DNA of 23,376 bases. It comes from a virus. The notes below the pieces were generated by a model. The model ran no database searches, was not told the DNA's origin, and saw only the letters and a list, made by a program, of their open reading frames with translations. Within the stretch, counting starts at the first letter, position 1; each line of letters starts with the position of its first letter. Shown here one piece after another: positions 222-21,735 of the stretch. A program made the translations under genes and the position numbers. The stretch spans positions 1 to 23,376 of IMG/VR virus record IMGVR_UViG_3300015371_000185; one strand, given 5' to 3'.

Positions 222-680
222 ATGTCCCGCAGGCCTACCGCCACGATTTTGAAATTGATACAAGGCGACGCGCACAAAGCGCGGCACCGCGACGACGCGC
301 CGAAAATTGCCGCGCTGCCGGTCGTCCCGCCCGGGTGCGTACTCGCGCCCGAGGAAAAAGAAATGTGGTCGTGGTTAATGGAACACGTAGCCGTGCCCGG
401 GGTGCACGGCACCGGCGACGGCGCCGCATTCGTAAAGATTGCGCGCCTATGGGCCCGGGTTAATCAGGTCGACAGTCGCCTAACTAACCAAGGGCTGATA
501 ATGAAATCGCCGCAGGGCAAGCCAGAACTACAACCGTACACGCGCCTTAGCCGCGATCTATGGCAGCAGCTAGGCCTAGCGTTAGCCGAGGTCGGCGCAA
601 CGCCTGCAGGCCGCGTCCGAATTTCAGGACCGCGCGAACTTTCCGCGCCGGGGGTCACCTCATGGGACGAAATAGACTAG
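222..680 (+). CDS. terS: Terminase small subunit, P27 family
   Basis: This 152 aa protein is the DNA-recognition subunit of the packaging motor. The N-terminus (RPTATILKLIQGDAHKAR, residues 4-21) matches the family opening in which an 'RPT..LKL.QGN..K' motif precedes a proline-rich stretch. The C-terminal half has the family pattern 'YTRLSRDLWQQLGLALAEVGATPAGRVRI', where a leucine-rich helix leads to the conserved 'G.TP..R.R' turn. ATG 222 follows GAGG at 209-212 with acceptable spacing. The length is usual for P27-type small subunits. The gene overlaps the next by 19 bp. The large terminase partner is not adjacent: six genes separate them, which is unusual. Confidence 0.88.
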   Translation: MSRRPTATILKLIQGDAHKARHRDDAPKIAALPVVPPGCVLAPEEKEMWSWLMEHVAVPGVHGTGDGAAFVKIARLWARVNQVDSRLTNQGLIMKSPQGKPELQPYTRLSRDLWQQLGLALAEVGATPAGRVRISGPRELSAPGVTSWDEID

Positions 681-988
681 CGCCGCCGCCGACCTCGTCC
701 GACCTCTACCTAGACGGCTATCTATTGGTCCGGATCACGGCGCCGCACTTTTGCGCCGGGCTGCGGGTGCTGCGCGCGGGCAATGTTTGCGCGCCGATCC
801 TGCGTTACATGCGGGACTGGTCCGTACGGCAAATAATGGATTACTGCAGGCATATGGGGTGGCGGTTCGAAATAATCGACCTACGCGGACCGGACACGCT
901 GGCCCCGGCGAACTTCGAACCGCCGCCCGACATTGCCGACGTTATCGACGTGGAAAAAACGCCTACACCGAAAAGGGGGGAACCGTGA
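662..988 (+). CDS. Conserved phage protein, about 108 aa
   Basis: A reading frame extends upstream to 560, but ATG 662, preceded by a G-run at 650-654, is the better start and gives 108 aa. The core reads 'LVRITAPHFCAGL', then 'APILRYMRDWS' and 'YCRHMGWRFEIIDL'. This resembles a small protein family seen in many proteobacterial phages, in which an 'I.APHF.AG' motif is followed by a helix and a 'GW' strand. I cannot assign a function. It ends in TGA at 986-988, sharing four bases (GTGA) with the start of the following pectate-lyase-like gene, so translation is probably coupled. The C-terminal 20 residues are acidic and proline-rich. Confidence 0.72.
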   Translation: MGRNRLAPPPTSSDLYLDGYLLVRITAPHFCAGLRVLRAGNVCAPILRYMRDWSVRQIMDYCRHMGWRFEIIDLRGPDTLAPANFEPPPDIADVIDVEKTPTPKRGEP

Positions 989-2502
989 ATACATGGCCTT
1001 ATCAGTCGACACCCTATCTATCCGCGCTGCCCGGTGTTGGCGGGCCGGGGCTGGACGTGAGCGCGGGCGACCTCCCCTCCAAACTCTACTTTGTGACGTC
1101 GACCGAGAATAAAAAAGAGGGCGGGCCCGATCCGCGCGGGCCTAACTGCTACTCGGGAACCTTCTGGTATTGCTGGTATGCAGACCAGGGCGAGGGGTTT
1201 TCTAAATTCACGTTTCCATTTCGCGGCGGTTATTGCTACCTGGGGCGCGCCATGAATGGCCCGGAGCGCGCGAACTTCGATTACGTCGGGCACGCGGCCC
1301 CGGGCGCCGGGCTATTCGTGCAGACCGCCGACCTACGCGTACGCGGGTCTAACTCCCGCGTGTGGCATCTACCCTCATGGGTCGGCGATCTGCCCTCGGT
1401 CGACGGGCCCGACGAATTTAAGGCGGACATGCGCGACGCCTTGGGGGCGAGTTCTAACAATGTCGATATCAACCGCGTGGCATTTATCAATTGCGAAGCG
1501 CGCTTCAGCATGGACGAGGGGATAGAGGTCTGGTACGAGGCGCAAGGGACCTCCTGCATTCGCTGCGCGATTTTCGATCCGCTGCATATACCCCCGGATT
1601 TCGCAATGGGCGAGGGTTCGCACCACGAGGCGGGCACGGACCACGGTTACGGGCATCTAGTCGGCGGGCGGGCTGACTACTCTCTAGCTATGCAAAACCT
1701 CTACGCGCATACGACCGGGCGTAATCCCCTGGTCGCAGCGCCTAACCACGCGCATATAAACAATTTGCACTATAACCACGGGCGCCCATACGTCGGGCGC
1801 GGCGAGGCGCTGCAAATCGACGACAACGGCGAACACAACGCCGACGCGGGTCAGTCGATGCAATGTAACTGTGTCGGTAACGTGACGGTGCGCGGCCCGG
1901 AACAAGGCGACTCGTTAACCCTCGCGAGGGTCGACGATGTAACGCCCGGGTCTACTGGTCATTCGTCTAACAATGTTTGTTACGGCTGGCCTAGCCCCGA
2001 GTCGCAGAATGGCTTTTTTTTCGAAGCACCGGACGGCTATCTGCAGGCGACGCTGCGGCGCGGCGCGTGGCCCCTGGGACTCGGGAACAATCTAAACGGA
2101 GTGCGTAAACCTTGCCGCGATCCGCTGCACCCGACGGTGCAGGAGGGGCTGGGTTTCGCGCAACTGATCCGCGAAACCGTCGGGTGTATGCCCGCGCGCC
2201 GCTACCTGTACAAGGGCGGCGTTAACAAGGTCTGCGATCAGATAGACGCGGCTATCCGGGGACTAGCTAGCGGGCCGCAATATATAAACACGGTCGACGA
2301 GGCGGGCGGGTGGCCCGAGGTCCCAACGCTTTCCGTCGACCCATTAGACCCCGGCGACGAATGGCACGCGCCGCTGCCGTTAGGCGCGGACCGCGACGAG
2401 GTCCTATTAGACGGGACCTTTTCGGACGGCAGTTCGAAAATCGGCTACAGCCGACTTCGGGCGTGGATCATAGAGGAATATTTGCGCAAGCTAGGTAGAT
2501 AG
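985..2502 (+). CDS. Pectate-lyase-like right-handed beta-helix protein
   Basis: The frame is open from 751, but GTG 985 (GTGA overlap with the previous gene, G-rich stretch 974-980) is preferred and gives 505 aa. The middle (about residues 165-300) resembles polysaccharide lyase family 1: an acidic 'MDEGIEVWY' strand, 'SHHEAGTDHGYGHLVGG', then 'NLYAHTTGRNPL' (about 236-248) and 'HINNLHYNHG' (about 256-265). In family 1 lyases the 'HN.F....R.P' and 'NN.YN' segments form the active-site helix turns, so the Arg near residue 245 is the candidate catalytic residue. There is no signal peptide and no recognisable tail-attachment domain. About a dozen cysteines are spread along it. It may be a virion-associated or released depolymerase, or a protein using the fold for binding. 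Its place between terminase genes gives no direct clue. Confidence 0.7.
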   Translation: MNTWPYQSTPYLSALPGVGGPGLDVSAGDLPSKLYFVTSTENKKEGGPDPRGPNCYSGTFWYCWYADQGEGFSKFTFPFRGGYCYLGRAMNGPERANFDYVGHAAPGAGLFVQTADLRVRGSNSRVWHLPSWVGDLPSVDGPDEFKADMRDALGASSNNVDINRVAFINCEARFSMDEGIEVWYEAQGTSCIRCAIFDPLHIPPDFAMGEGSHHEAGTDHGYGHLVGGRADYSLAMQNLYAHTTGRNPLVAAPNHAHINNLHYNHGRPYVGRGEALQIDDNGEHNADAGQSMQCNCVGNVTVRGPEQGDSLTLARVDDVTPGSTGHSSNNVCYGWPSPESQNGFFFEAPDGYLQATLRRGAWPLGLGNNLNGVRKPCRDPLHPTVQEGLGFAQLIRETVGCMPARRYLYKGGVNKVCDQIDAAIRGLASGPQYINTVDEAGGWPEVPTLSVDPLDPGDEWHAPLPLGADRDEVLLDGTFSDGSSKIGYSRLRAWIIEEYLRKLGR

Positions 2503-2510
2503 GAGGTTGC

Positions 2511-2993
2511 ATGTATATTTTCGAAGGGGTGGCTATTAACTGGCGTAACGTGTGGTATGCGCTGCCCCTCGGGGGCGCGGGCGACAAGGACCCTAACGTT
2601 CAGCGCTGGCGCATGTACTTTTCCGACGAGCACTATCTAGATATTACCGTGCGTGGCGACCCGGACGACCAGTTAGGCGAGGTCGCTATCGTGCCAGCCG
2701 CGCCGGGGTTTTTCGTGGTGGAGCCCGTCTACTCCGACTTTGCGGACGGCGAGCCTAAAGAGTCGCAGCAGTCGCCCGTAATTGCGTGGCGGATTTTCAA
2801 CGGCAAGACCGAAGCGGTAACGGTCGAAAACAATTTTGGTACGCACGGGATTTTGCAGCCCGATGGAACGGTAGTCGAACCGGACGAAACCACGTTCGAA
2901 ACATTGGCGGCATGGATGACGGAAATTCGGCGCCGCGAGTCGCAAAAGCGCCAAATCCGCGACGCCGATCCGGAAACCGAGAGTATTCAGTAG
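2511..2993 (+). CDS. Hypothetical phage protein, 160 aa
   Basis: I do not recognise this protein. It is acidic, rich in aromatic residues and beta-prone, for example 'WRMYFSDEHYLDITVRG' and 'VAIVPAAPGFFVVEPVYSD', and ends in a charged helix (about residues 130-160). There is no signal peptide or membrane segment. The start is well defined: ATG 2511 follows a perfect AGGAGG at 2501-2506 with a 4-base spacer, among the strongest ribosome binding sites in the window. That site overlaps the stop of the pectate-lyase-like gene, suggesting the two are translated together. A binding or virion accessory role alongside that gene is possible but not shown. Confidence 0.7.
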   Translation: MYIFEGVAINWRNVWYALPLGGAGDKDPNVQRWRMYFSDEHYLDITVRGDPDDQLGEVAIVPAAPGFFVVEPVYSDFADGEPKESQQSPVIAWRIFNGKTEAVTVENNFGTHGILQPDGTVVEPDETTFETLAAWMTEIRRRESQKRQIRDADPETESIQ

Positions 2994-3175: not shown

Positions 3176-3463
3176 ATGACGCGCATCTTTGCCGACACGG
3201 GCGGGAGTGGGGAATTCATTATACAAACCACGGCGCTAGATTTAGACGCCTATCTAGCGGAGTTCTCCGAAGCATTGGCCGAGGCGTTGAAACTTTCCAA
3301 AGACGAGGGCGACTTAGCCGCGTTCGGCATACTTAAAAACGCAATGCCGATTGCCTTTAAGTTATCCGGCTATCGGGCGGACACGGTTAACGAGTCGCGC
3401 ACGCTCGCGTGCGGCACTATCGACCCGCATAAGTGTAAGGTAGTTAGTAGTGCTGGACGATAA
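3176..3463 (+). CDS. Hypothetical phage protein, 95 aa
   Basis: I do not recognise this gene. ATG 3176 follows GAAGGGG at 3163-3169. After a short N-terminal stretch the protein is strongly helical (about residues 25-65; 'LAEFSEALAEALKLSKDEG'), acidic, and ends with a small basic Cys-containing tail. It overlaps the start of the next gene by 14 bases. Its position in a run of small genes between the two terminase genes suggests an accessory protein, possibly acting with the following 190 aa protein. Confidence 0.6.
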   Translation: MTRIFADTGGSGEFIIQTTALDLDAYLAEFSEALAEALKLSKDEGDLAAFGILKNAMPIAFKLSGYRADTVNESRTLACGTIDPHKCKVVSSAGR

Positions 3464-4022
3464 CTACCACGACGCGCTACCCATCATTAAGCGCTTACGC
3501 TCGCACGGTCTAGAGGACACGGGATTTACCACGGACCGCAGCGACGGTAAATGCTACCGGTACATGCGCCGGATGTTAGCGGGCGCCTGGACTAATAGCG
3601 GGCTATCGCGCGAGGGCTATCTAATCTCAAAACGCCACGTCGACGCTATCGGGTTCGCGGCCCTATGGGCGGCACAAACGGAGTCGGACCTTATGAACGT
3701 AATAGACGAACTGCACACTAACTACGACGCCGCCGCGAAACTATGGGACGCGTATAAAGATCGCCTGCACGAGTTCCGCAGCGCGGTAAAAAACGACGTC
3801 GCGAGCCTTGAGGCGGCGGCGCGCAAGACAGCGGACGCCGCCGTGCGGATTAACAAGTCCTACGCGGAAGTATTCGCGCAATTGAATGGGGACGAAATGG
3901 CGCGCGCGATTGACAACGCCGAACGACTAGCTAGGGCGCTGGACGCAATCGCGCACCTGCAGGGCCATAGACTCATGTTCGCCGTGGTCGACCAGGGGGG
4001 CGCTAACGGCGTCGGTGTATAG
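3450..4022 (+). CDS. Hypothetical helical phage protein, 190 aa
   Basis: The start is GTG 3450, inside the last codons of the previous gene; TAAGG at 3436-3440 is a possible ribosome binding site. The product has a basic N-terminal third ('RSDGKCYRYMRRML', 'SKRHVDAIGFAALWAAQ') and a long helical, likely coiled-coil, stretch from about residue 85 to 170 rich in Ala, Asp, Lys and Arg. There are no membrane segments. I do not recognise the family. Such a helical protein just ahead of the large terminase could be structural or DNA-associated, but this is speculation. Confidence 0.62.
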   Translation: MLDDNYHDALPIIKRLRSHGLEDTGFTTDRSDGKCYRYMRRMLAGAWTNSGLSREGYLISKRHVDAIGFAALWAAQTESDLMNVIDELHTNYDAAAKLWDAYKDRLHEFRSAVKNDVASLEAAARKTADAAVRINKSYAEVFAQLNGDEMARAIDNAERLARALDAIAHLQGHRLMFAVVDQGGANGVGV

Positions 4023-4083: not shown

Positions 4084-6018
4084 GTGGATCAGATAGACCT
4101 ACCGGATTTAGAGCCTAAGAAAAAACGCGGGCGTCCGCACAAATACGCAGACCCCGAGGCGCGCCGCGCGGCGCGGGTTGCCGCCCGGCGCGAGGCGCGC
4201 CGCATTGCAAAGGAAAAGCTAAAGGGCCACGGCGCCGACGTGCGCGCGCGCGCGGTGCAGCTACGCCTGCAGGCCCTCGCGCCGAAGTCCGCCGACCTAG
4301 ACGTTAGGGACGACGATCTAAAGGACATTGCCGCCACCCTGCCGAACGTCGCCGAGGCGCTGCAATACGTGCGCGACATTCTAACTAGCCGCATCCCCGC
4401 GTGTTCCTGGGTTCGTATGGCGTGCGAACGGCACGAACGCGACGAGGCGCGTATAGAGTCCGACGCGTTCCCTTTTACGTTCGACGCGCGCAAGGCGGAA
4501 AGGGCGCTGCGCGCTATTCAGATGTTCCGGGAAATTCGCGGGCCGCGCGCCGGTAAGTGTTTCCGGTTCGGTCCGTGGCAGAAGTTCCTGGTCGCCTCTA
4601 TGTTCGGCTGGACTAACAAGGCTACCCGTATGCGCCGATTCCGCTACGTGTTCGTCGCGGTCCCCAAGGGCAACGGCAAGAGTTCGTTAGCCGCGACCAT
4701 TGCGCTTTTTATGCTAGCCGTCGACGGCGAGGGCGGCGCCGAAGTCTACGCGGCGGCGGTGACGCGCGATCAGGCGCGAATTGTTTTCAACCTCGCGCAG
4801 CATATGGCGCGGCAGGACGGCGCCTTTCGCGCTAAGTACGGGGTAGAGGTCGGCGCGCACGCCATTACGCAGACCGCGACCGCGTCTATCTGCCGTCCGC
4901 TATCGCGCGACGCGAACGCCCTGGACGGGCTCAATATTCACCTTGCGGTGTTAGACGAACTCGCGGCGCACAAGTCCCGCGAGGTGCACGATGTTTTAGT
5001 AACCGCAACCGGCAAGCGGTCGCAACCGATGATTCTATCTATTACCACGGCGGGAAATAACCAGTCAGGCATCGGGTTCGAACAATGGCGCTACGCGCAG
5101 CGCGTGTTAGCGCAGGAAACTGTCGACGAATCGTTTTTCGGATTGATCTACACGATAGACGATGCGGACGACTGGCAAAGCCCCGAGTCCTGGGCGAAGG
5201 CTAACCCGAACTTTGGGACCAGCGTGCACCCCGACGTAATAGCTAGTCTCGCGCACCGCGCCTCACAAATAGCTAGCCAGCAAAACGCCTTCAAGCAAAA
5301 GCATTTAAACCTATGGACTAACGCGGCGGTCGCCTGGGCTAACATGATTGCATGGGACCAGTGCGCCGACCCTGCCCTAACCGAAAACGATTTCAAGGGC
5401 GAGCAATGCGTTATAGGTCTGGACCTCGCGGCAAAGATAGACCTAGCCGCGCGCGTTAAATTGTTCGCGCGCACAATCGACGGGGTTACGCATTACTACG
5501 TGTTCGCGCAGTTCTATCTACCCGAGGCGACGATATTTGACGGGCGTAATGCATCCTATGGAACGTGGCACGCGGACAACTGGATAACCGGGACGCCCGG
5601 CGAGGTTATAGATTTCGAACGCATACAATCCGACATCCTGCAGGATGCGACCGACCACGTAATATTAGACGTCGCCTACGATCCCTGGCAGGCGTTGAAA
5701 CTAGCTAGTGAGTTAGCCGCCAAGGACGTGCCCGTTATCGAGTACCGCCCGACCGTCGCGAACTTCTCGCCCGCCATGAAAGAGATAGACGCCCTTATCC
5801 GGCAGCGGCGCCTGCACCACAACGGTAACCCGGTACTACGTTGGAACGTGTCATGTTGCGAGGTGGCGGAAGATTTCAAAGGAAACATTTTCCCGCGCAA
5901 GGACCGCGACAACCCCCTGCAGAAAATCGACGGACTGATAGCGCTACTCATGGCAATGGGTCGGCGCATGGTTTTGGAGTCCGAAGGCTCTAGCGAACCG
6001 ACGCTAACCTTTGTCTGA
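4084..6018 (+). CDS. terL: Terminase large subunit
   Basis: This is the ATPase/nuclease of the DNA packaging motor. Starting at GTG 4084 (after AGGGG, 4073-4077) it has 644 aa; an upstream TTG at 4039 would translate the leader element and is rejected. Seen motifs: Walker A VPKGNGKS (about 193-200), Walker B 'LAVLDE' (about 287-292), a coupling-like 'SITTAGNN', then the RNase-H-like nuclease with acidic residues in GLDLA (Asp ~447), 'DVAYDPWQA' (~530-538) and 'KIDG' (Asp ~616). These place it in the Terminase_1 type. The first ~45 residues are an extra, very basic region beginning 'KKKRGRPHKY', which resembles an AT-hook, followed by an Arg/Ala-rich helix. Gene context (prohead protease next) fits. 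The partner small subunit is 3.4 kb upstream. Confidence 0.95.
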   Translation: MDQIDLPDLEPKKKRGRPHKYADPEARRAARVAARREARRIAKEKLKGHGADVRARAVQLRLQALAPKSADLDVRDDDLKDIAATLPNVAEALQYVRDILTSRIPACSWVRMACERHERDEARIESDAFPFTFDARKAERALRAIQMFREIRGPRAGKCFRFGPWQKFLVASMFGWTNKATRMRRFRYVFVAVPKGNGKSSLAATIALFMLAVDGEGGAEVYAAAVTRDQARIVFNLAQHMARQDGAFRAKYGVEVGAHAITQTATASICRPLSRDANALDGLNIHLAVLDELAAHKSREVHDVLVTATGKRSQPMILSITTAGNNQSGIGFEQWRYAQRVLAQETVDESFFGLIYTIDDADDWQSPESWAKANPNFGTSVHPDVIASLAHRASQIASQQNAFKQKHLNLWTNAAVAWANMIAWDQCADPALTENDFKGEQCVIGLDLAAKIDLAARVKLFARTIDGVTHYYVFAQFYLPEATIFDGRNASYGTWHADNWITGTPGEVIDFERIQSDILQDATDHVILDVAYDPWQALKLASELAAKDVPVIEYRPTVANFSPAMKEIDALIRQRRLHHNGNPVLRWNVSCCEVAEDFKGNIFPRKDRDNPLQKIDGLIALLMAMGRRMVLESEGSSEPTLTFV

Positions 6019-8613: not shown

Positions 8614-10032
8614 GTGAACATCCTGGACCGCACGCTAACGAGCCTTATCAGGTGGCGCACGCGTGGCGCTATGACTAGCCTCCCCGCGCCCCCGGGCTAC
8701 GGCGGAAATTCTCTACCGCCGCTATCGCACGGCTACGTGCACGAACCGTATAGCGGCGCTTGGCAAGCTAACAAAGAGTGTTTCGGCCCCTACGGAATTT
8801 TTAGCGCGGTCTACGCCTGTATTGCAATCATTGCGGGCGACCTCGCCAAACTACCGCCGCGCGTGCGGACCCTGAAACCTAACGGGCAAAAGGTCGATAA
8901 CGATAGGCACCCCGCCGCCTTGGTCCTGAATACGCCTAACACGTATCAGACCCGGGTCGACTTCTGGGGCCAATTCATGTCAAGCGCGCTTTTCACCGGG
9001 AATACTTACGTGTTCCTGGCGCGCGACCCTAACAACGTTATCCGGCAAATGCATATTCTGGACCCGCGCCGGGTGTCGGTAATGCTCGCCGAGGACGGTA
9101 GCGTGTTCTATCGGATCGGGCAGGAACGGTTAGCCGAATTGTTAGGCGGTGACACGGTCCCGGCGCGCGACATTCTGCACCACAGACTATTAACCCTCAC
9201 GCATCCGTTAGTCGGCCTTACCCCCTTGTACGCGGCGGGCGTGTCGGCCATGACAGGGCAAACTATTCAGCAGAATAGCTATAGCTTTTTCGCGAACATG
9301 TCGCGCGCCTCGGGTGTCCTAACTTCCCCGGGTAAGATTTCGCAGGAACTCGCCAATCGCCTTAAGACCGAATGGGACCAGAACTTTAAAGGCGGCAGCA
9401 TGGGGCGCACCGCCGTCCTAGGCGAGGGCATGAAATGGGAGCCCCTAACTATCAGCGCGGCGGACGCGCAGCTAATCGAGCAACTGCGCTGGTCGATAGA
9501 GGACGTCGCGCGGTGTTTCCGCGTGCCGTCCTACATGCTGACCGACGCTAGCAAGGTCTCGTTTAAGAACGCCGAACAGTTAGCCCGGCAGTATTACGGG
9601 CAGACGTTGCAATATCACATCGAGTCGATAGAGGCGCGCATAGATTCGGCTTTCGAACTCTCGGGCAATACGTATTGCGAGTTCGATCTAGCGGCCATGA
9701 TGCGAATGGAATTCGACGCACGTATGTCCGCGTATCAAACCGGCATAACCTCAGGCGTCCTAACTATTAACGAGGCGCGGAAACTAGAAGAGTTAGAGCC
9801 AATGGAAGGCGGCGACGAACCGTTAGTACAAATGCAGTACCGCCCGCTATCGCAGGCGGGGCAACCGATGGGGCCCGCCGTGCCCGCACCCGCCGAACCG
9901 GACCCGCCGCCCGACCCGGACGCGGGCGACGAAACCGACGCAACCGACGCGACCGACGCGGACGCGGAGTTAAGCGCGCTTGCGCTGCGCGTCGCGGCGC
10001 GTTCGCGCGCCCGCCTGAGGTTAGCCGCATGA
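8614..10032 (+). CDS. Portal protein, HK97 family
   Basis: This 472 aa protein makes the dodecameric ring at the unique head vertex. The N-terminus 'MNILDRTLTSLIRW' is a typical short amphipathic start for the family, which supports GTG 8614 over the internal ATG at 8671. Seen: 'VYACIAIIAGDLAKLP' (about 67-82), 'NTPNTYQTRVDFWGQFMSSALFTGNTYVF' (about 108-136), 'HHRLLTLTHPLVGLTPL' and 'FRVPSYMLTDASKVSFKNAEQLARQYYGQTL'. The C-terminus is Pro/Asp-rich with a short Asp-Ala-Thr repeat (about 430-450) and a basic tail. No good ribosome binding site precedes GTG 8614; a hairpin occupies that region. The stop shares ATGA with the next gene. Confidence 0.93.
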   Translation: MNILDRTLTSLIRWRTRGAMTSLPAPPGYGGNSLPPLSHGYVHEPYSGAWQANKECFGPYGIFSAVYACIAIIAGDLAKLPPRVRTLKPNGQKVDNDRHPAALVLNTPNTYQTRVDFWGQFMSSALFTGNTYVFLARDPNNVIRQMHILDPRRVSVMLAEDGSVFYRIGQERLAELLGGDTVPARDILHHRLLTLTHPLVGLTPLYAAGVSAMTGQTIQQNSYSFFANMSRASGVLTSPGKISQELANRLKTEWDQNFKGGSMGRTAVLGEGMKWEPLTISAADAQLIEQLRWSIEDVARCFRVPSYMLTDASKVSFKNAEQLARQYYGQTLQYHIESIEARIDSAFELSGNTYCEFDLAAMMRMEFDARMSAYQTGITSGVLTINEARKLEELEPMEGGDEPLVQMQYRPLSQAGQPMGPAVPAPAEPDPPPDPDAGDETDATDATDADAELSALALRVAARSRARLRLAA

Positions 10033-10928
10033 ATACGCGCGCCCTGGTCGAACTGATAACCGACGCGGTAACCGACGCGGTCCGCGAGGCGTTGCCGCGC
10101 ATGATTGCGGACGCGGTGGACCGGCGAGTTACCGAGTCGATAGCGCCCGAGGTCGACCGGCAGGCGCGCGCCCTGGTCGACCTCGCGGACAAGCTGCAGG
10201 AACGGGTAACCGAGGTGCAAGCGGATTTCGCTACGCGTGCGATTGCGCAGGCCGACGCCCTAACTACGTCGACGGGTGCCCGGATTGACGCGCTACGCGG
10301 GTCAATCGCGGAACTGGTAACCCGCGCGGTAACCGAGGTCCCTTCGCACCCCGGCCCGCGCGGGGAACCAGGACCGCCCGGACGGGATGCGACCTTTACG
10401 CCCCCGGTGCACTGGACCCCTGAGACCGGCTTTACTCGCGGCGCCGTGGTCATGCATCGCGCGGGACTCTGGTTCGCGAACCAGGACACCGCCGCCGAAC
10501 CCGGTTCCGGTGTCGACGGGTACAGCCTCATGTTTGACGGGCACGAACTAGAGGGCTACGAACATGACGCGCGCGGCTATCAGGTCGCGGTCTACCGCTA
10601 TGCGTCGGGCAAGGTGCGCCGGGTCGAAACAGGCGAGCGCCCGTTTAGCTACTGCGGCGTGTACGACCACGGCACTAACTATTACCGGAACGACTGCGTA
10701 ACCGCGTCGGGCTGCATGTGGATTCACAAAGCGCCCGAATCCTGCGGGCTGCGGCCCGGCAGCGACGAGGCGCGCGCCGCGTGGCAGCTTGCCGTTAAAA
10801 GCGGACGCGACGGGCGCGACGGGCGCGACGGCGGACCAGGACCCAAGGGGGACAAGGGCGACCAGGGCCCGCCCGGCGCGACCGTAATCCGCGCGCCGAA
10901 GCAAAAAGCTAACGGGGTGCCGACGTGA
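10029..10928 (+). CDS. Coiled-coil protein with two collagen-like segments
   Basis: This 299 aa protein starts at the ATGA overlap with the portal gene. Residues 1-105 look like a long coiled coil (heptad-like 'ALVDLADKLQERVTEVQADF'). A short Gly-X-Y run, GPRGEPGPPGRD (109-120), is followed by a beta-rich domain with Trp/Tyr/Cys motifs ('GVVMHRAGLWFA'-like and 'YCGVYDHGTNYYRNDCVTASGCMWIHKA', 208-235). A second Gly-X-Y run (about 259-283) begins with three GRD repeats. The paired 'G.Y..G..Y...D.V...G..W' motif resembles carbohydrate-binding modules of the CBM5/12 kind and recurs in phage proteins next to 'WQLAVKSGRDG'. It is likely a trimeric surface fibre or decoration protein; attachment to the head is inferred from gene position only. 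Confidence 0.68.
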   Translation: MNTRALVELITDAVTDAVREALPRMIADAVDRRVTESIAPEVDRQARALVDLADKLQERVTEVQADFATRAIAQADALTTSTGARIDALRGSIAELVTRAVTEVPSHPGPRGEPGPPGRDATFTPPVHWTPETGFTRGAVVMHRAGLWFANQDTAAEPGSGVDGYSLMFDGHELEGYEHDARGYQVAVYRYASGKVRRVETGERPFSYCGVYDHGTNYYRNDCVTASGCMWIHKAPESCGLRPGSDEARAAWQLAVKSGRDGRDGRDGGPGPKGDKGDQGPPGATVIRAPKQKANGVPT

Positions 10929-18464: not shown

Positions 18465-18886
18465 GTTCCACGCAACGCGCCTTACTACTGGTCGGCACGC
18501 CTTACAAGCGCGATGGGGCGAGTCCGACCGAGGGCTTCGACTGTTTCACGTTGCTCGAATACGTGCGCCGGGTTTACTACCGCCGCGCGACGCCGCACGC
18601 CGGAATACCCGCGCCTGATATCCCGTCCGCGCAGGCGGCGGCGCTGGCTATCTACCGCGCCACGGGCGGACGGGAACATATGGGAAGCCCCTGGATAGAG
18701 TCCGACGGCGCCCAAGGCTGCGCCGTTGCGTTAGGGCGGTCGCGGTTCGGGCGCCTGCATCATTGCGGCGTAATGCTGGACGGCGGCGTTCTGCACGCGC
18801 TTGAAACCGTCGGGGTTGCATTCATGCCGCTGGAACGGGTCGGGTTGCTCTATGCCCGCGTGGAATTCTACGAATGCCGCAGCTAA
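18461..18886 (+). CDS. NlpC/P60-like tail cysteine peptidase (K-like)
   Basis: Starting at the ATGA overlap (18461), the product is 141 aa. A longer upstream frame exists but only inside the previous gene. Seen: 'GTPYKRDGASPTEGFDCFTLLEYVRRVYY' with candidate nucleophile Cys28, and 'GRLHHCGVMLDGGVLHALE' with candidate His100/101. These are the Cys and His boxes of NlpC/P60 peptidases, which cut peptidoglycan peptides. In lambda-like phages the K protein sits in the tail tip before I/J. The lack of a separate I-like gene suggests that the next protein's N-terminus covers that role. Confidence 0.8.
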   Translation: MSSTQRALLLVGTPYKRDGASPTEGFDCFTLLEYVRRVYYRRATPHAGIPAPDIPSAQAAALAIYRATGGREHMGSPWIESDGAQGCAVALGRSRFGRLHHCGVMLDGGVLHALETVGVAFMPLERVGLLYARVEFYECRS

Positions 18887-21735
18887 TCGTTATCCGCGAC
18901 AGCTTAAGCGGCGAACGTGAGACGTTCGACCTCGTTAGCGGTGCCACGCTGGCGGCGAACCTGCGGCGCCTGTACCCGCGCGGATTAGCGGGACCTTGGC
19001 GCGTGTACCGGGACACGGTGCACGAGGACCACGAAATAGCGGCGGTTAATCTGCCGGGCGAGGTCGTGCAACCTTTCGCGGTGTATATCCTCGCGCGCGG
19101 TGTCGCCGCCGATCCGGTGTCGTTCTTTATTAACCTCGCGATTTCCCTCGCGCTTTCCTATATCGCCAAACTACTCGCGCCGCGCGTGATACCCCGCCGC
19201 GAGTCGGACCCGGACACTAGCGGCAACAATGCGTTAGCCGGACAAAGCAACCGAATGCGAGTCGGCGGGCGCGTGCCGGATATCTTAGGCACGGTGCGCA
19301 GTTACCCGGACCTACTCTGCAACCCTATCGAGACGTGGTGGAAACGCACGCAGACTATTCAGCAGTTCTTTGTAGTCGGCGCCGGGCGCTATGACATACC
19401 ACTAGCTACCGTAAAGTTAGGCGAGACGCCGATAACGGATATAACCGGCGCGTCCTTCACAATGATAGACCCCGAGGACCCCGACCCGGCCAAGCGCGTA
19501 ACGCCACAGATGCGAATGGTTCGGGAGTCCCCCGAGGTGCGCGGAATATCCCTCATGTCAGAGGGCGCGGGCACCGTCGCGACGACCGGCGTGGAGTTCG
19601 ACGCGACCGCAAAGACAATGGTTACGGACGTCTATCTAGCTATCCCGGCGGACACGCCGATACGGATAGACGGCACGAACTTTAATGACGCGTTTTTTTG
19701 GGTCGACACGGTGCCGGACCCGGCGAGCGCCGCGCCTTATACCTACGTCCTAACGGGTCCGGTTGTCGACGAGACCGGCGCGGGCCCCTCTATTGTTATT
19801 TACGAACCGGCGTCGACGCAAACTAGCGCAGTCTATTACGGCACCTCGTCGACATGGTTCCCGACGCCGACCGGCGAGGACGCGCGCCTATACGGCGGTT
19901 ACATCGGCGGGTTGCCGGTTGGGTCCGTCGTTAAGTTCGTGGCGGCGAGCGCGACCTATCGCGGGACGGTTGTCTATTCGGCGCCGCAGCTAGTGCTAAT
20001 CGGCGGTCTGCCGACGTTCCGGCAGGACTTGATAGTTCGAATAGAGGACCCCGACGGCGTTACCTACACGTTCCCTAATGCCTGGGAGTCGACGCATATA
20101 ACGCACTATCTACCCGGTAGTGAGACCGGCGCCGAGGGCAGCGGCACTCCTGAGACGACAACCCCTGAGCCTACCAACTGGTTCACGGTGCCAATGGAGG
20201 ACCCTACCGAAATATGGATAGACATAGCCTTTAAGCAAGGTCTCGCACATTTTGCTTCCGGGTATCGCGACACGTTGTTAGTTAGCGTGCAGGCAGAATT
20301 CCGGCGCAAGGGGCAGACCGAACCGCCGATAGCTATAGCCCCGTTCGTATACACCGAAGGGACCTCGTCCCCTTTGCGCTTTACGCAAGCCGTCAGCGTC
20401 GCCGCCCTTACCACGGCGGGACTTCCGGCCGGTTCCCCCTGGATACAGGTACGCCTGACTAAAACGACGAACAATCATATCGACGACGACACCAACCAAT
20501 ACCTAGAACAGACATTTTGGGAACGGCTGGCGGCGATGCGCTATCTACCGGCGACGCACTACGATGGGTTTACGGTTGTGCTCTTAGCTATGGCGAATTC
20601 GCGCAGCGCGGTGTCGATGGGCGAGACTACTTTTAACTGCGTCGCAACCCGCGTGTTGCCGACTTGGGACGGCAGCGCGTGGACCGAGGCGGCGCCCACT
20701 GACAAATGGGCCGACAATTTCGTAGCGCGCTGCAAGGCGACGGACGGGGCTAACAAGACCGATGCGCAAATAGATATAGCCGGAATCTACGAATTGCAGG
20801 CGCAGTTAGACGACATGGACGGCGGCGCGCAAGGTCGCATATCCATGACGCTAGATCAGATGCAGGATATCGACTCCGAACTAGTGCGCATTGCCGACGT
20901 GGTGCGCGCGGTCGTGTACCGGGTCGGGAAAAAAATCTACGCGTCCCGCGATCAGGCGACGGCTACGCGGATTGCGCTCTTTAACGGGCGCACCAAAAAC
21001 CCCGATGGCGAGTCGGTGTCTATGCGCATGACTAATGACGGCGAGAACGATTCGGTGACAGTTAACTGGTTAGACGTGTCGGCCGGTTACAAGGTGCGCG
21101 AGTACACCTATTCACCTATCGCCGAACCGGTTAACCCGTTGCAGGTGTCAGCCTTCTGCGCTAATTGGCCGCAGGCGTGGCGCCGCGCCCGCTACGAAAT
21201 GAATCGCATTAGATACCGCCGCGAACAAATCGCGGTAAGCGTGACCGAGGACGGGCGCATATGCAGACCCGGCGACGTGGTCAATATCACGGACGATATA
21301 GCGAACCTCGCGGCAAGCGCGGGCGAGGTCCTGATAGTTGACGGCGGCGAGTTAACACTAGATAGGGACGTTGCCTTTAGCGTCGGGCATACCTACTCGA
21401 TTCTGTTACGCGACCTTGAGGGGCAAACGGTCGACACGATACCGGTAACCGAGGTCGCCGGGGTGCCTAACAAGGTGCAACTATCGCGCGACCCGGTGCC
21501 CGAGGTAACGATTAAAGGGCGCGACAGTTCGACCGGCACCCTGTACGCGTTTTTCGACGACGCAGCGGCGAACGTCCGCCCCTGGTTACTGACGGGCGTT
21601 AGTGCCAGTGGTCCCTACGTGCAACTGCAGGGGACTAACTATAACCCCCTCGTGTACCAGGACGACACGACCGAACTAGAAGATCCGCCGTTATTGCTGC
21701 CGGAATCGTTCGACATTATCGGGGGCGAACCATGA
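18874..21735 (+). CDS. Tail tip / host specificity protein (J-like)
   Basis: This 953 aa protein closes the tail tip. The N-terminus (1-80; 'MPQLIVIRDSLSGERETFDLVSGATLAANL') looks like the ubiquitin-like I/J start, followed by a hydrophobic segment 'VSFFINLAISLALSYIAKLLA' (about 82-102) typical of these proteins, then 'GQSNRMRVGGRVPDILGTVRSYPDLL' and 'QFFVVGAGRYDIPLATVKLGETPI', the conserved J-type core. Further motifs near the C-terminus, such as 'ANWPQAWRRARYEMNRIRYRREQIAVSVTEDGRICRPGDVV', match the tip attachment domains. It overlaps the K-like gene by 13 bases. Receptor binding probably involves this protein and the downstream fibre. Confidence 0.88.
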   Translation: MPQLIVIRDSLSGERETFDLVSGATLAANLRRLYPRGLAGPWRVYRDTVHEDHEIAAVNLPGEVVQPFAVYILARGVAADPVSFFINLAISLALSYIAKLLAPRVIPRRESDPDTSGNNALAGQSNRMRVGGRVPDILGTVRSYPDLLCNPIETWWKRTQTIQQFFVVGAGRYDIPLATVKLGETPITDITGASFTMIDPEDPDPAKRVTPQMRMVRESPEVRGISLMSEGAGTVATTGVEFDATAKTMVTDVYLAIPADTPIRIDGTNFNDAFFWVDTVPDPASAAPYTYVLTGPVVDETGAGPSIVIYEPASTQTSAVYYGTSSTWFPTPTGEDARLYGGYIGGLPVGSVVKFVAASATYRGTVVYSAPQLVLIGGLPTFRQDLIVRIEDPDGVTYTFPNAWESTHITHYLPGSETGAEGSGTPETTTPEPTNWFTVPMEDPTEIWIDIAFKQGLAHFASGYRDTLLVSVQAEFRRKGQTEPPIAIAPFVYTEGTSSPLRFTQAVSVAALTTAGLPAGSPWIQVRLTKTTNNHIDDDTNQYLEQTFWERLAAMRYLPATHYDGFTVVLLAMANSRSAVSMGETTFNCVATRVLPTWDGSAWTEAAPTDKWADNFVARCKATDGANKTDAQIDIAGIYELQAQLDDMDGGAQGRISMTLDQMQDIDSELVRIADVVRAVVYRVGKKIYASRDQATATRIALFNGRTKNPDGESVSMRMTNDGENDSVTVNWLDVSAGYKVREYTYSPIAEPVNPLQVSAFCANWPQAWRRARYEMNRIRYRREQIAVSVTEDGRICRPGDVVNITDDIANLAASAGEVLIVDGGELTLDRDVAFSVGHTYSILLRDLEGQTVDTIPVTEVAGVPNKVQLSRDPVPEVTIKGRDSSTGTLYAFFDDAAANVRPWLLTGVSASGPYVQLQGTNYNPLVYQDDTTELEDPPLLLPESFDIIGGEP

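Follow-up and report, generated by a model that had tools for sequence, protein, structure and literature searches.

A PL1-type polysaccharide lyase gene in the packaging region of a siphovirus-like phage, probably carried as soluble accessory cargo

The window analysed here is the whole 23,376-nucleotide stretch of IMG/VR virus record IMGVR_UViG_3300015371_000185, from a phage that is represented by metagenome sequence only. A first-pass annotation of this DNA had placed a 505-aa ORF between the genes for the small and large terminase subunits (TerS and TerL), and our study agrees with that placement, as both terminase genes were clear by Pfam and PHROG (Table 1). The TerS–TerL interval consists of the lyase gene and four smaller ORFs, one 5′ and three 3′ of the lyase, all on the + strand. 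The lyase gene begins with GTG, and this codon shares bases with the TGA that ends the 108-aa gene before it (GTGA, 985–988). A homologue of the 108-aa protein with 68% identity is encoded immediately 5′ of the lyase in L009, another contig. The 160-aa protein encoded on the 3′ side is 25% identical to one encoded 5′ of the lyase in L021 (1892–2503) and is possibly a travelling partner. As a portal gene (8614–10032) and a gpJ-like tail gene (18874–21735) lie downstream, the lyase locus represents the packaging end of a siphovirus-like late block. The product of the ORF after the portal gene (10029–10928) has a collagen-like run of Gly-X-Y close to the C-terminus and matched portal-associated and tail-fibre families.

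Table 1. Positions of the genes and active-site codons at the lyase locus of the window
Feature	Position	Strand	Basis or remark
Terminase small subunit (TerS)	222..680	+	Pfam PF05119 (Terminase_4) E 4e-6; PHROG 83 E 1e-10
108-aa protein, no assigned function, 5′ of lyase	662..988	+	Sequence
PL1-type (PelZ-like) polysaccharide lyase, 505 aa, without signal peptide	985..2502	+	hhalign, AlphaFold2, structure match
D151 codon	1435..1437	+	Aligns with Asp of the DAI-type Ca-site motif of PL1
D177-E178 codons, acidic pair	1513..1518	+	Invariant in 86/86 rows
R246 codon, catalytic Arg position	1720..1722	+	Invariant in 86/86 rows
A251 codon, substrate-binding Arg/Lys position of pectate lyases	1735..1737	+	Basic residue lost
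160-aa protein, no assigned function, 3′ of lyase	2511..2993	+	25% homologue beside lyase in L021
95-aa ORF between TerS and TerL	3176..3463	+	No family match (Pfam, PHROG)
190-aa ORF between TerS and TerL	3450..4022	+	DUF1759 match weak, under cut-off
Terminase large subunit (TerL, HK97-type)	4084..6018	+	Pfam TerL_ATPase and TerL_nuclease; PHROG 9 E 3e-151

Homologues of the lyase were found in about 20 IMG/VR contigs at 55–99% identity, and dN/dS values of about 0.17–0.23 between close pairs showed that the gene is under purifying selection. Together, this conservation and the dN/dS values led us to reject the explanation of a spurious ORF. The start region (M..WPYQSTPYLSALPG) was also conserved among the relatives. 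The two motifs quoted in the first-pass annotation correspond to lyase residues 238–249 and 259–266 (NNLHYNHG being the second). A two-motif scan for members of the phage subfamily in 84,980 genomes, which covers only copies with the motifs used in it, returned no relative.

As a single sequence, the lyase had no Pfam family match and no PDB sequence match, and it reached models named 'pectate lyase' weakly (NF041900 PelZ, E 0.011; PHROG 27797, E 0.5). Its score of 14.6 bits on NF041900 lies under the 840-bit PelZ equivalog cut-off, and it had no match at the gathering threshold of Pfam PF00544, although the PelZ-like cellular lyases that we tested were also below this threshold or missed. PHROG 27797 was reached by 2 of 17 members of the phage subfamily (best E 0.012), and tblastn against plasmids recovered haloarchaeal and bacterial pectate lyases (best E 1e-8, haloarchaeal). 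Comparison of 17 phage sequences with nine proteins of cellular-lyase type using hhalign gave a probability of 99.5% and an E value of 4e-22 over 357 columns. This match includes a C-terminal extension, in which the phage VGCMPARR... / INTVDEAGGWP corresponds to the cellular AGARPxDR... / IDSQEEVGGYP. The phage HMM scored 9 of 10 cellular-type proteins over threshold, and the nine-protein cellular profile reached 9BUJ (E 2e-80), VexL, 3ZSC (the Thermotoga maritima pectate lyase), pectin lyases and PelC; PelZ of Dickeya and of Pectobacterium belongs to the wider cellular group. We place the phage lyases in a branch specific to phages and sister to the secreted pectate lyases of PelZ-like type.

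AlphaFold2, supplied with an alignment of 86 rows (16 phage and 70 cellular-type), returned a model with a pLDDT of 91.4 and a pTM of 0.93, with high confidence throughout; as cellular PL1 sequences are part of this alignment, the model does not count as evidence separate from the homology. It superseded a run with seven phage sequences only (pLDDT 28). The best solved structure for the model was PfPL1 (9BUJ; Z 32.8 over 375 residues), followed by VexL (Z 25.4) and other pectate and pectin lyases (Z 22–26), with phage tailspikes lower (Z 17–19). The predicted structure confirmed a right-handed parallel beta-helix with PL1 topology. The first-pass annotation had described a beta-helix protein with family 1 lyase-like motifs, and both parts of this description are borne out by the profile comparison and by a confident model whose top matches are PL1 enzymes.

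The alignment indicates that the catalytic core of PL1 enzymes is retained in the phage branch and that the substrate-facing basic set is altered. The position of D151 is occupied by Asp in 16 of 16 phage and 67 of 70 cellular rows, and D177 is the counterpart of the first DGAVD Asp in 3ZSC. Residue 181 corresponds to the second DGAVD Asp and the third Ca-ligand position; the window has E there, 13 of the 16 phage copies have Q, and the cellular rows have S. At the position of R246, 9BUJ (SRTPR), VexL (QRNPR) and pectin lyase (GRMPK) also have their Arg, and H220 is invariant in all 86 rows. Comparison with PL1 active sites had been proposed as a check on the original reading, and it found the catalytic Arg in place, as well as two Ca-type acidic residues, D151 and D177, with the third position variable. 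Pectate lyases have a carboxylate-binding Arg at catalytic Arg +5, as in PelC (R218/R223). At this position (residue 251) the phage copies have A (10), S (5) or G (1), and the cellular rows have K in 69 of 70. Residue 216, the HxKG Lys of cellular enzymes, is P, A, E or T in phage copies, and the equivalent of cellular R132 is W. Four other residues (R150, R193, H201 and H265) are invariant across the phage branch, and at the positions of R150, R193 and H265 most cellular rows show P, N and P, respectively; the PelC K190 equivalent has two candidate positions, the HxKG Lys (residue 216) and H201.

As the equivalents of K251 and K216 are replaced in every phage copy, substrate specificity has probably shifted. 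Cleavage of plain polygalacturonate should not be assumed when these pectate-lyase basic residues are replaced, and their loss leans away from it as the substrate. With the core kept and the basic set changed, we named the protein a PL1-type lyase rather than a pectate lyase. Replacement of residues that are conserved in 62–70 of 70 cellular relatives could also be expected of a catalytically dead PL1 derivative that now serves as a polysaccharide-binding or structural protein. We regard such a loss of activity as unlikely, since no phage copy has changed the catalytic Arg or the acidic pair despite long divergence, dN/dS is low in the close pairs, and the phage-invariant R150, R193, H201 and H265 could form a remodelled site.

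The hydropathy of the N-terminus ranged from 0.88 to 1.53 in 16 phage copies. For 53 cellular relatives the median was 2.47, and values above 1.6 were seen in 50 of them. All phage copies begin a few residues ahead of WPYQS, and their N-terminus corresponds to the region that comes next after the signal peptide in the cellular enzymes. No N-terminal virion-binding domain was found in the lyase, in which the first beta-strands of the helix start from about residue 32. These observations uphold two further statements of the first-pass annotation, that the protein has no signal peptide and no tail-attachment domain.

The roughly 20 contigs with the lyase subfamily represent three or more phage backgrounds that are unrelated to one another, and the place of the gene varies between them. 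It lies between TerS and TerL in the window, L016, L019, L020 and L045, 3′ of TerS and several kb ahead of TerL in L009, and 5′ of TerS in L021, and it is divergent from TerL and the structural operon in G007 (L018/L162). In L003, L005, L006, L012, L013, L017 and L022 the gene is close to large tail-fibre-type genes; in L046 it immediately follows the portal gene, and the terminase of L046 matches different PHROGs. Between the window and L016, TerL is 86% identical and the lyase 64%, and the window lyase shares 76–77% identity with copies from contigs in which nothing matched the window TerL. Forcing the eight siphovirus-type lyases into one clade was rejected (AU p 2.4e-6), as was grouping the window lyase with those of L016, L019 and L020 (AU p 1.8e-51), and co-descent of the lyase with the siphovirus terminase was ruled out on these two tests. 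In L156–L160 and L165 (TerL about 71% identical) and in L163, L164 and L167 (TerL 54% identical), TerS and TerL are adjacent or separated by a short spacer and the locus contains no lyase, and a profile search of records G010 (41,163 bases), G012 (40,505), G011 (55,963) and G013 (15.8 kb) found no PL1; these lyase-lacking records are contigs and perhaps incomplete, with the TerS–TerL locus itself covered. Given the tree conflict with the terminase and the absence from close relatives, the lyase gene is a maintained, mobile and optional accessory cargo gene and not a core virion gene.

Two other features were seen in these contigs. An HNH-like-looking ORF, homologous to L009:348–1052, lies 5′ of TerS in L158, L159 and L165 and is present in many relatives. 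In another lyase-carrying phage background, G001 (L027:8612–18907) and G002 (L031:3829–13434) contain ORFs of about 3,200–3,400 aa.

The variable setting of the gene also bears upon a virion-associated depolymerase, either a short tail spike or a protein bound to a tail or head protein, which would digest surface polysaccharide at adsorption. The contigs with nearby tail-fibre-type genes and the position after the portal in L046 would suit such a protein, as would the phage tailspikes among the structural neighbours, albeit at lower Z, and the strong conservation of the N-terminal 20 residues. We consider this role unlikely, however, as the copies start just ahead of WPYQS with no head- or tail-binding domain, the carrier phages have unrelated packaging and head genes, close relatives do without the gene, and the nearest structures are cellular PL1 enzymes, not tailspikes. 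Furthermore, the gene is divergent in G007, which speaks against both a structural role and a strict co-expression with structural genes. The first-pass annotation had raised three options, a soluble depolymerase, an accessory cargo gene or a virion protein that binds polysaccharide. Its PL1-type fold and its soluble or accessory option are supported, the latter being the best of the three given the absence of the gene from close relatives and its movement between unrelated phages, and the virion protein is not supported, owing to the missing N-terminal attachment domain and the orientation in G007.

Taken together, this evidence makes it probable that the gene encodes a soluble, catalytically competent PL1-type beta-helix lyase, carried as accessory cargo (a 'moron') in the packaging region and freed at lysis. 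The overlapping GTGA start inside the same-strand packaging block favours this reading. The lyase would probably be made late, together with the packaging genes, although late co-expression is not general, as the lyase is divergent from TerL in G007/L162. Having no signal peptide, it would build up in the cytoplasm until lysis of the host cell set it free. The freed enzyme could then beta-eliminate a uronic-acid polysaccharide around cells, candidate substrates being bacterial exopolysaccharide or biofilm, or plant pectin, and the benefit may be that progeny reach new hosts, that the matrix is loosened, or both.

The first-pass annotation also hinted at a host with a pectin-like or uronic-acid-rich surface, or one living on plants, and we treat this as a possibility. 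Several of the IMG sample numbers may be those of rhizosphere samples, a lead only; a literature search with these numbers returned no habitat. A reading that differs from the one above in substrate and benefit is that of an auxiliary metabolic gene, whose product cuts plant homogalacturonan and feeds the infected host or its neighbours. We hold this to be plausible but less than probable, and our confidence in the two readings overlaps, as most steps of the pectin reading are also those of the soluble, lysis-released lyase. It draws upon a cellular sister group that holds PelZ of two genera, upon PHROG 27797, which labels such genes pectate lyase or auxiliary metabolic, and upon viral pectate lyases reported from soil viromes (PL3, PMC6460857; family unspecified, PMC8985318). 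However, feeding of a living host is not expected of an enzyme without a signal peptide, and both the +5 Arg/Lys of pectate lyases and the HxKG Lys are lost. More tentatively, the phage lyases may be a phage-exclusive subfamily with a rebuilt active site that cuts a polysaccharide outside the known PL1 range, acting as a free lysis-released enzyme and travelling as a mobile cassette among unrelated phages; we think this version rather unlikely as a whole.

Discussion of phage depolymerases usually concerns tail spikes. The PL1-type lyase stands alone, has no signal peptide, moves between siphovirus-like and other phage backgrounds, is missing from close relatives and has lost basic residues of pectate lyases. 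It thus offers a clean test of whether phages carry soluble, matrix-degrading enzymes that are released at lysis, and this phage branch is currently missed by the profile libraries (Pfam, PHROGs and NCBIfam). Viral pectate lyases are already known, and the phage-only PL1-type branch is a new variant. Other phage contigs (L136–L152) carry PL1 domains much nearer cellular enzymes, and in L136–L139, L142 and L143 the domain lies within proteins of 1,100–1,600 aa that may be tail spikes. Record MT835984.1 ('Bacteriophage sp.', human faeces, UNVERIFIED) encodes two tandem pectate lyases (L047:14–3564), one with an apparent signal peptide, and resembles a bacterial polysaccharide-use locus rather than a phage.

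In comparison with known systems, the phage lyase is closest to the PelZ-type PL1 enzymes (NF041900) of Dickeya, Pectobacterium, haloarchaea, planctomycetes and others, with which it shares the beta-helix core, the C-terminal extension (GARPxDR...IDSQEEVGGYP in the cellular enzymes) and D151, D177-E178, H220 and R246. It differs from them in an identity of about 20–26%, in having no signal peptide, in the replacement of the K216, K251 and R132 equivalents and in the phage-specific invariant R150, R193 and H265. PfPL1 of Pseudoalteromonas fuliginea, the top structure match, is 18% identical, yet it is a cellular PelZ-like enzyme with the HxKG Lys and an RxPR motif, both missing from the phage branch. 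VexL (6FI2), the Vi-polysaccharide depolymerase, has a PL1-like fold and an RNP motif at the catalytic Arg, but it is periplasmic and acts on a bacterial capsule, and its sequence match stops before the C-terminal extension. The phage 'pectate lyase' genes of PHROG 27797 (L136–L146) also encode a PL1 domain on phage contigs, but they are far closer to cellular enzymes, some of them within the large proteins noted above, and the window lyase scarcely reaches their family. Phage tailspikes, such as CBA120 TSP2, the Klebsiella K1/K2 capsule depolymerases and Pam1, share the right-handed beta-helix, whereas they match the model at lower Z and are trimeric virion proteins with attachment domains.
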